From the NCBI RefSeq assembly GCF_020662345.1, contig NZ_VMOA01000005.1:62001-126000 (forward strand): a stretch of DNA of 64,000 nucleotides, written 5' to 3'. The notes beneath the pieces are model-generated. The model was not told where the DNA came from. It searched no databases and saw nothing but the letters and a program-made list of their open reading frames with translations. The translations under genes were made by a program, and so were the position numbers. Numbering within the stretch: position 1 is the first letter of the stretch; every line of letters begins with the position of its first letter. Below are positions 36,676 to 38,427 of the stretch, piece after piece. The stretch is from Methylobacterium sp. W2. GTDB taxonomy: Bacteria; Pseudomonadota; Alphaproteobacteria; Rhizobiales; Beijerinckiaceae.

Positions 36676-36739
36676 TGAATACCCCGGACGTCATGCGGGA
36701 ACGGCAGCGGCGCGAATGTAAGCCCGGCTCCGGCCCGTT

Positions 36740-36754
36740 GCGATGTTGCATCGC
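36740..36754. promoter_or_regulatory. Perfect 6-bp dyad upstream of the SulP leader
   Basis: GCGATGttgCATCGC lies 26 bp before the 15-codon upstream ORF of the SulP gene, close to where the promoter should be. It is a plausible operator for a sulfur- or stress-responsive regulator; no regulator can be named from the sequence. Confidence 0.35.
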
Positions 36755-36779
36755 AGCGGGTCCGTGCTATCAGGCGTCC

Positions 36780-36827
36780 ATGCATCTCAAGCGGTTCATC
36801 GATTTTCTCGGCCTGACCCCGCCGTAG
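36780..36827 (+). CDS. Possible 15-residue leader peptide of the SulP gene
   Basis: ATG to TAG encodes [15 protein letters not shown], 116 bp before the SulP start, with AGGCG about four bases upstream as a weak ribosome-binding site. The peptide ends in Pro-Pro, and consecutive prolines are known to slow ribosomes, so it could act as a translational sensor for the downstream hairpin. This is a hypothesis; no peptide of this sequence is known to me. Confidence 0.35.
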
Positions 36828-36859
36828 GCGTCAGCGTACCGAATCGTGTTCCGTCCGTG

Positions 36860-36883
36860 CCCGGCGAGCGCTAAGCGCCCGGG
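36860..36883 (+). promoter_or_regulatory. Hairpin in the SulP leader
   Basis: CCCGG (36860-36864) pairs with CCGGG (36879-36883), and inside it GCGC pairs with GCGC around a TAA loop, with one three-base bulge. It lies between the leader ORF and the SulP start. A conserved RNA motif named sul1 has been described upstream of alphaproteobacterial sulfate transporter genes; I cannot tell whether this leader matches it. Confidence 0.4.
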
Positions 36884-36942
36884 TTTCCAGATGCCCGTCC
36901 CTGCCGGCTTTTCGCGCGCGGGGACCCTCGAAAGCCTTACCC

Positions 36943-38427
36943 ATGAACCGTCAGCACCTCCGGAGCGAGTGGGCTCCCGACGTCACGCGTGAACTCCTGG
37001 CCGGAACGGTGGTAGCCCTCGCGCTGATCCCCGAAGCCATCGCCTTCTCGATCATCGCGGGCGTGGACCCCAAGGTCGGTCTCTACGCCTCGTTCTGCAT
37101 CGCGGTGATCTCGGCTTTCGCCGGCGGACGCCCGGCCATGATCTCGGCCGCCACCGGGGCCATGTCCCTCGTGATGGTGACCCTCGTGAAGGAGCACGGG
37201 CTCGGCTACCTGTTCGCCGCGACCATCCTTACCGGCCTCCTGCAGATCGCGGCGAGCCTGATGCGCCTCGGCAACCTGATGCGCTTCGTTTCGCGCTCGG
37301 TGGTCACCGGCTTCGTCAACGCCCTGGCGATCCTGATCTTCCTCGCGCAGATGCCAGAGCTCATCGGGCGGGGTCCGGTCGTCTACGCGATGACCGCCAT
37401 CGGCCTCGCGATGATCTACGGCTTGCCCTACCTGACGAAGGCCGTCCCCTCCCCGCTGATCACGATCCTCGTCCTCACCGGGGTCGCCGTCTGGTTCGGG
37501 TTCGACATCCGGACCGTCGGCGATATGGGCGCCCTGCCGAGCGAATTGCCCGTCTTCGCCCTGCCCCAGGTCCCACTCACCCTGGAGACCCTGCGGATCA
37601 TCCTGCCCTATGCCCTCACCCTGGCGATGGTCGGCCTGCTCGAGAGCATGATGACGGCGGCCATCCTCGACGAGATGACCGACACGACTTCGGACAAAAA
37701 CCGCGAATGCGCCGGCCAGGGTCTCGCCAACATCACCTCCGGCCTGTTCGGCGGGATGGCGGGCTGCGCCATGATCGGGCAATCGGTCATCAACGTCTCG
37801 TCCGGCGGGCGGGGCCGACTCTCCACGCTCTGGGCCGGAGCGTTCCTGCTGTTCCTCATCGTCGTGCTCGGCCCCTACGTGGCGCGAATTCCCATGGCGG
37901 CCCTCGTGGCGGTGATGATCATGGTCTCGATCAACACCTTCCAGTGGAACTCCGTCCGCACGTTGCTGACCCATCCGAAAAGTTCCAGCGCGGTGATGCT
38001 GGGCACGGTGGCGGTCGTCGTCACCACCCACGACCTCGCCAAGGGCGTCCTGTTCGGCGTGATCCTCTCGGGCCTGTTCTTCGCCCACAAGGTGACGCGG
38101 TTCTTCCGCGTGTCTTCGGCGCGAGACGAGGGGAGCCGGGTGCGGACCTACCGGGTGAGCGGGCAGATCTTCTTCGCCACGGCAGAAGCCTTCCACGCCG
38201 CCTTCGATTTCCGCGAGAACGATCTGGACGGCGTGGTCCTCGATCTCACCGCCTCGCATTCCTGGGATATCACCGGCATCAACGCGTTGGACCGAGTGGT
38301 GCTGAAGTTCCGACATCACGGCATTCCGGTGGAGATCACTGGAATGAACGAAGCGACCGCGACCCTCGTGGACCAAGTCGGCACGCACCAGAAGCCCGGC
38401 GCGGTGCTCGCCGGGTCGGGTCACTGA
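36943..38427 (+). CDS. SulP-family anion transporter with STAS domain
   Basis: A 494-residue membrane protein: 10-12 hydrophobic helices follow the short N-terminus ([30 protein letters not shown] is the SulP signature), and a C-terminal STAS domain (about residues 395-485) contains [20 protein letters not shown]. SulP members carry sulfate, bicarbonate or other anions; the substrate cannot be read here. A leader with a small ORF and hairpin precedes it. Confidence 0.93.

Follow-up and report, generated by a model that had tools for sequence, protein, structure and literature searches.

In the tryptophanase operon of Escherichia coli, a short leader ORF precedes a gene of transport and metabolism, and its product, TnaC, arrests the ribosome at termination, stalling with the last proline in the P site and masking a rut site from Rho (passages of PMC8429421). 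The same passages describe SpeFL, whose termination arrest inhibits RF1 and which is named there as an L-ornithine sensor. In E. coli, a C-terminal Pro-Pro before the stop impairs the termination of YbeL-PP, a laboratory variant of an ordinary protein rather than a leader ORF, and Pro-Pro-stop stalls in every context tested (passages of PMC3834316); Pro-Pro is also underrepresented at protein ends, that is, rarer there than expected (PMC3985003, in part). Control before a gene can also reside in structured RNA, such as sul1, which is typed as a riboswitch by Rfam and for which no ligand was met in the open-licence PMC text searched. TnaC-type peptides share a conserved Trp and Asp at a fixed distance from the final Pro, and SpeFL is longer than 15 residues.

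Here we analyze the leader of a SulP-family transporter gene in a 64-kb stretch of Methylobacterium DNA (the whole stretch is referred to as the window; Table 1). The original prediction, made from the letters alone, placed a dyad, a 15-codon ORF and a hairpin ahead of this gene, all of which are present at 36740-36942 as judged by coordinates and folding. It also likened the arrangement to a peptide-controlled leader, a reading that the coding constraint and the conserved Pro-Pro-stop described below support, and held that Pro-Pro before the stop can stall ribosomes, in agreement with the impaired termination reported for this ending (PMC3834316, in part). The leader ORF (uORF) resembles TnaC in being a short ORF before a transport gene and in having Pro as the final sense codon (Pro-Pro-TAG in the window), and shares its C-terminal Pro-Pro with YbeL-PP. 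In contrast to TnaC, the window peptide ends in Pro-Pro, which in its family mostly follows Thr, is shorter and lacks Trp; peptide bodies vary from genus to genus, and the uORF alternates with an RNA element. The Trp/Asp arrangement of TnaC-type peptides is accordingly absent. SpeFL differs in both peptide sequence and target gene. No description of a Pro-Pro-stop uORF before SulP was found among the best-ranked matches listed from open-licence PMC text, and the main text of a study of the S. meliloti small proteome (PMC10117765) does not mention SulP, sulfate or sul1. The uORFs ending in Thr-Pro-Pro before the stop (TPP-stop) would form a new family among leader arrest peptides, unusual for how little of the peptide is conserved and for being exchanged with an RNA element.

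Table 1. Features of the SulP leader and gene in the window.
Feature	Coordinates	Strand	Remarks
Extended inverted repeat around the dyad	36735..36759	.	probably operator; 11-pair hairpin, -18.2 kcal/mol if transcribed
TGTTGCATCGCAGC, predicted PhaR/PhbF-type operator core	36744..36757	.	own-genome pattern match
TGCTATCAG, extended -10-like element	36765..36773	+	putative promoter role
Leader uORF, 15 codons, ends Thr-Pro-Pro, stop TAG	36780..36827	+	synonymous-only variation, shared TPP-stop ending
Hairpin 1, stable, lineage-specific	36859..36884	+	-15.1 kcal/mol, z -1.95
Hairpin 2, stable, lineage-specific	36897..36925	+	-18.1 kcal/mol, z -2.79
SulP-family anion transporter with STAS domain	36943..38427	+	494 residues, ATG at 36943

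The transporter belongs to the Pfam families Sulfate_transp (185 bits) and STAS (50 bits), and its best-ranked relatives in a protein scan of named genomes come from Methylobacterium. It scores under the cut-offs of the NCBIfam models for the sulP sulfate permease (TIGR00815, 289 of 380 bits), DauA (NF008660, 225 of 614 bits) and BicA (NF050096, 156 of 880 bits), and its closest solved chain is 5da0 ('Sulphate transporter', 597 bits), which we take to be SLC26Dg, presumably the protein for which fumarate transport was reported. Given the missed cut-offs and this closest solved relative, sulfate is not established as the substrate. The adjoining genes resemble what we take to be ispA and leuB.

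The window uORF is under protein-level selection. In eight species with the same leader (8 loci), the peptide is identical, the variable sites number 0, 0 and 7 of 15 at the three codon positions, and all 74 pairwise codon differences are synonymous; identity is 94.5% within the uORF compared with 77% in the preceding and 58% in the following 48 nt. The leader DNA search that yielded these loci matched 49 of 111 genomes of the genus, many of them solely at the transporter start, and a pattern for the first eight uORF codons occurs in 8 of the 111, once in each, at the eight SulP leaders and 159-166 nt before the SulP start. Within the window, the uORF is the sole ATG-started TPP-stop ORF of its size range on either strand (2-27 codons between ATG and TPP, the range also used in the chance counts).

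An ORF and stems this short might arise fortuitously, considering that the dyad by itself is not rare in the window and that about 3 of the 94 Pro-Pro calls reported below are expected by chance from shuffles. Among 280 leaders of 300 nt each, however, 74 contain an ATG..TPP-stop ORF, against none in the antisense and a mean of 0.2 (maximum 1) in 50 rounds of dinucleotide shuffles; the respective numbers for ATG..PP-stop ORFs are 90, 2 and 3.1 (maximum 7), and TPP-stop ORFs occur in 0.2% of random 300-nt pieces of the window. These counts are not independent, owing to the kinship of leaders from the same clade, but the TPP ending recurs with unlike peptide bodies. Chance may account for a few of the 94 PP ORFs (about three by the shuffles), for example, MQRKPP or MILRPSARPDAFPAGDPP. 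For the window ORF, a chance origin is ruled out by the TPP-stop excess together with the synonymous-only change in eight species, and a coincidence of chance ORF and chance stems has a negligible probability in our estimate. The uORF is very likely a functional translated regulatory element.

Leaders were collected from 30 genus loci, from protein searches of the family, genus and order, from the named-genome scan (80 loci kept of the 590 relatives found) and from a phylum search (398 genomes), with 139 additional stretches retrieved and the order and phylum places sampled in part. The final set comprises 305 loci, or 281 leaders once identical ones were removed; an earlier, smaller set comprised 220 loci and 199 non-identical leaders. 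One leader with too little upstream sequence was removed per analysis (199 to 198 in two analyses, 281 to 280), and loci L221-L251, which do not stem from SulP searches, were excluded from later counts. The PP class was defined by an ATG-started short ORF with Pro-Pro-stop or by the betaproteobacterial PRGYF type. On this definition, 94 of the 281 leaders have a PP-stop ORF, 98 have sul1 and 89 have neither, and the sensor therefore appears dispensable in many lineages.

Among the 94 PP ORFs, TPP is the ending in 78, followed by GPP (6), APP (3), SPP and NPP (2 each) and KPP, EPP and DPP (1 each), the choice of ORF favoring TPP at loci where several PP ORFs are present. The stop codons are TAG in 71, TGA in 12 and TAA in 11, the peptides have 6-31 residues (15 in 46 of the 94), and the median distance from the stop to the SulP start is 124 nt (quartiles 113 and 142, range 5-267). 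Twelve of the 89 leaders with neither element contain a TPP-stop ORF with a non-ATG start, for example, VRITPP or LIVTITPP, and no other common ending was found among the 133 ATG mini-ORFs of this class, 13 of which end in Pro with no dominant dipeptide. The peptide bodies of the window's genus, including MMQDRAIPVSRPTPP, are unlike those of other genera: Microvirga has MVHDSFRAKTFRMTPP, Sedimenticola MTQYKQSITPP and Alcanivorax MILSRLSPP, the core (M/L)PRGYFCSVTPP or a near variant occurs in Polaromonas, Duganella, Noviherbaspirillum, Hydrogenophaga and Variovorax, and genomes of the phylum search contributed MRITPP, MFVLTPP and MYPMITPP. Across genera, then, the TPP-stop ending is kept and the peptide bodies are not alike; of the conservation between genera on which the original prediction was staked, that of the peptide body and the stem is missing, but that of the ending is present. 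The identical peptide in eight species would also suit a functional microprotein acting in trans, a reading that we consider highly improbable given that the last residues alone remain between genera, that the length varies as much as it does and that the ORF stays in front of SulP. In Roseicella, Roseomonas and Siccirubricoccus (L158, L193 and L198), the PP ORF may begin at an inner ATG, in which case the peptides have six residues only (MILGPP, MTVAPP and MLFAPP, with TAA as the stop).

It had been left undecided from the letters whether the leader is sul1 or a new element. The sul1 model (RF03058, cut-off 36.2 bits) has no match in the window at the gathering score and none in the leader at E values up to 5, and sul1 is rejected by these covariance-model scores; other Rfam matches in or near the leader (E 0.2-3.5) are far under their gathering scores. 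Because orthologues in sister species have sul1 in the same place, the window leader is an alternative to sul1. Of the 30 genus loci read first, L018 and L026 lack the uORF and have sul1 there instead (Rfam, 69.7 and 75.1 bits), and Rfam confirmed sul1 at 15 more, mostly diverged, loci (L138 and L259 being one place). The remaining sul1 calls were made by likeness to the core string, with three loose matches (L069, L128 and L132, 8-9 errors), where Rfam found no sul1, set aside. Diverged sul1 copies with cores of the GGCTCGGCCCGGCGCCTATCCCCGG or GGCTTCTCCGGGCGCC type at L298, L302, L304, L316, L102, L139 and L205 are over the Rfam cut-off; sul1 lies ~265-275 nt upstream of SulP in the last three, as is the case for the GGCTTCTCCGGGCGCC-type variants, and ~100-150 nt upstream elsewhere.

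The uORF and sul1 serve the same gene family from the same place between the promoter and the SulP start, but sul1 is a structured RNA to which the window leader is unmatched, and the two occur together in none of the 281 leaders. None of the 98 sul1 leaders contains an ATG-started TPP-stop or PP-stop ORF; with CTG, TTG and GTG starts allowed, L117, L285 and L325 also contain a PP-stop ORF. By eye, reading frames differ between sul1 members, and the notion of sul1 as a hidden ORF ending in Pro-Pro was dropped. In the genus, every one of the 89 examined leaders carries exactly one element (38 PP, 51 sul1). This holds for 50 of 50 places in the group of SulP proteins at least 76% identical to that of the window (38 PP, 12 sul1), and the more distant SulP places of the genus have sul1 in all 39 examined of 57. 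In a quick tree of 114 SulP proteins, PP and sul1 require six changes among the rows with either element, and L042 and L046 have mutually unlike TPP peptides inside sul1-bearing SulP clades (supports 82-91, below the starred level). Some genomes contain two SulP copies, one per element, for example, G005 with sul1 at L062 and a PP ORF at L063. As read from the leaders, this swapping shows an equivalent role of the PP uORF and sul1, not the same signal; that the uORF answers to the same signal as sul1 has, in our judgment, an even chance.

Building on the coding constraint, the TPP-stop ending, the alternation with sul1 and the operator motif discussed below, each of which is visible in the sequences, we propose, with some confidence, a two-layer control of SulP that combines a PhaR-type promoter with an exchangeable sensor, here a TnaC-like termination-arrest leader peptide. 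The first layer would be a promoter with a PhaR-type operator near the -35 region, and the second an exchangeable sensor at or near the transcript start, in the window the 15-codon uORF. From here on, we infer that the peptide stalls, what signal it answers to, the part played by Rho and the direction of control. Ribosomes translating the uORF would terminate poorly on account of a nascent chain with Thr-Pro-Pro at its end; their staying or departure would decide if the next ~115 nt are open or exposed to premature, probably Rho-dependent, termination, and the outcome in this stretch would decide whether SulP is made. Arrest at TPP-stop is likely, and Rho as the output is a more tentative suggestion. 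Given that orthologues carry sul1 at the same place, the peptide would probably answer to the signal of sul1, perhaps the transported anion. Because the peptide bodies differ between genera, the chain has no evident pocket for a specific ligand of the kind seen in TnaC.

The retention of the ending alone, in peptides of as few as six residues with little chain for a ligand site, could instead mean that the Pro-Pro-stop ORF monitors translation itself (termination, the capacity of EF-P or release factors, ribosome rescue), not a metabolite, and ties the transporter to growth. The stalling in every E. coli context tested (PMC3834316, in part) and the prevalence of TAG would fit, whereas the TGA and TAA stops imply that one release factor is not required, and the alternation with sul1, an Rfam riboswitch, suggests a metabolite; we regard this explanation as unlikely. 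Under the two-layer control that we favor, a broader generalization has in our view somewhat less than an even chance, namely, that these are phylum-wide minimal arrest peptides, down to Met-Arg-Ile-Thr-Pro-Pro-stop, in which the Thr-Pro-Pro-terminating ribosome is the sensor, repeatedly swapped with sul1 under the same promoter and for the same signal. Six-residue TPP-stop peptides, if they arrest ribosomes on demand, would rank with the smallest arrest peptides in regulation and offer a clean system in which to study context-dependent termination. With the uORF found in the place of sul1 in sister species, the same control can be approached from a second and independent side, and any compound acting on peptide and RNA alike would be a strong candidate for the ligand. 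The exclusive alternation of the two at a single gene amounts to a natural experiment on how one regulator replaces another.

The original prediction treated the hairpin as a conserved stem, for which we found no support across species groups. Between the uORF stop and the SulP start, no fold is common to the leader groups (consensus-fold z -1.7, -2.1, -0.2 and -2.0 in four groups, compared with -3.9 for sul1 leaders as the positive control), and the betaproteobacterial group has no structure there. Across this stretch in the eight close species, 3 of 49 pairs have both partners changed, with an unfavorable covariation term (+0.86); two of the pairs of hairpin 1 and none of hairpin 2 show such changes. 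A conserved RNA fold downstream of the uORF is rejected by these consensus-fold and covariation tests; a lineage-specific RNA structure is possible. No T-run of an intrinsic terminator was seen by eye after hairpin 2. As for a C-rich, G-poor stretch resembling a rut site after the uORF, a trait of TnaC-type leaders, 15 MQDR leaders have C fractions of 0.47-0.53 and G fractions of 0.20-0.26, 14 MLKD leaders a moderate excess of C over G, and the window's group of eight leaders C 0.32-0.38 and G 0.28-0.38, with G exceeding C in two; the bias is not specific because it is also present downstream of sul1 (C 0.36, G 0.26).

The dyad (GCGATGttgCATCGC, 36740-36754) is unremarkable alone, the window having 41 perfect inverted repeats with arms of at least 6 nt and a 3-nt center, but it gains interest from the recurrence of its core at a constant position in relatives. 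Passages in the literature give the PhaR operator of Bradyrhizobium as TGCRNYGCASMA (PMC6201568), the Sinorhizobium PhaR motif as WNWD2NYGCRNYGCRNH2WNW with the core YGCRNYGCR (PMC12542648), and the PhbF operator as TG[N]TGC[N]3GCAA (PMC3206438). The window operator core matches 11 of the 12 letters of TGCRNYGCASMA and has the core TGC-RNY-GCA in common with the published PhaR (AniA)/PhbF sites, but its arms are not AT-rich; no SulP gene is named as a PhaR/PhbF target in the passages and table of these three sources. In the 198-leader set, TGCRNYGCA occurs in 31 of 80 PP, 44 of 59 sul1 and 19 of 59 neither leaders, compared with 4.0, 2.6 and 2.8 in shuffles. In PP leaders, 23 of the 32 matches stand 32-39 nt upstream of the uORF ATG; in sul1 leaders, 40 of the 52 stand 41-44 nt upstream of the sul1 start, taken as 15 nt before its core. 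The numbers in the larger set are 31 of 94, 64 of 98 and 24 of 89, so that most PP leaders miss the strict TGCRNYGCA; among the eight closest species, the window alone has it, and the other seven have YGCRNYGCR with GCG for GCA. The window genome encodes PhaR (103.9 bits) and three phasins, with YGCRNYGCR sites upstream of all three phasin genes and none upstream of phaR in the stretch read (L240). The pattern TGYTGCRNYGCARC matches 19 times in this genome, at 15 places of which four are palindromic and count once per strand; its reversed control matches 3 times.

Of the 37 Methylobacterium PP leaders, 36 have a TG(N)TA element 14-16 nt upstream of the uORF ATG. If this is an extended -10, the transcript would start at or near the uORF ATG, leaving the dyad outside the RNA and the uORF nearly leaderless. 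The dyad, originally taken for a part of the RNA leader, is therefore better viewed as probably a PhaR-type operator, situated close to the promoter and ~35 nt upstream of the ORF; such an operator at SulP would point to carbon-storage physiology. The near-leaderless position suggested by the -10-like element, combined with the lack of a conserved switch structure, is also compatible with a constitutive device that senses nothing, in which the role of a fixed pause close to the 5' end is to set or protect expression, be it by a ribosome-loaded 5' end, mRNA stability or a fixed attenuator. The alternation with sul1 and the strong peptide constraint within clades are unexpected for a passive pause, and we find this reading, in any of these forms, improbable compared with a sensor as the second layer of control.

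Several observations concern PhaR-type sites at other loci. In a Polaromonas MAG and a beta proteobacterium MAG (L161 and L171), the PRGYFCSVTPP ORF has its most upstream ATG within reach of a PhaR/PhbF-type site, TGTTGC(AG)ATGCAC, that overlaps it; translation therefore probably begins downstream of this ATG, at the M/L that precedes PRGYF. In the window's own genome, sites at positions 1501-1514 of L226 and 376-389 of L227 (contigs 50 and 59) precede genes for an amino-acid permease (PF13520) and a CsbD-like protein (PF05532), respectively. On contig 93, the PhaR-type palindrome ATGCTGCATTGCAGCAT (L236 1501-1514; 98273-98286) lies close upstream of a patatin-like phospholipase gene (PF01734, 89 bits), and TGTTGCGTTGCAAC (L238 1501-1514; 116751-116764) lies 168 nt before a sigma-54 (rpoN) gene and ~5.5 kb from phaR, so that PhaR and sigma-54 may be linked.
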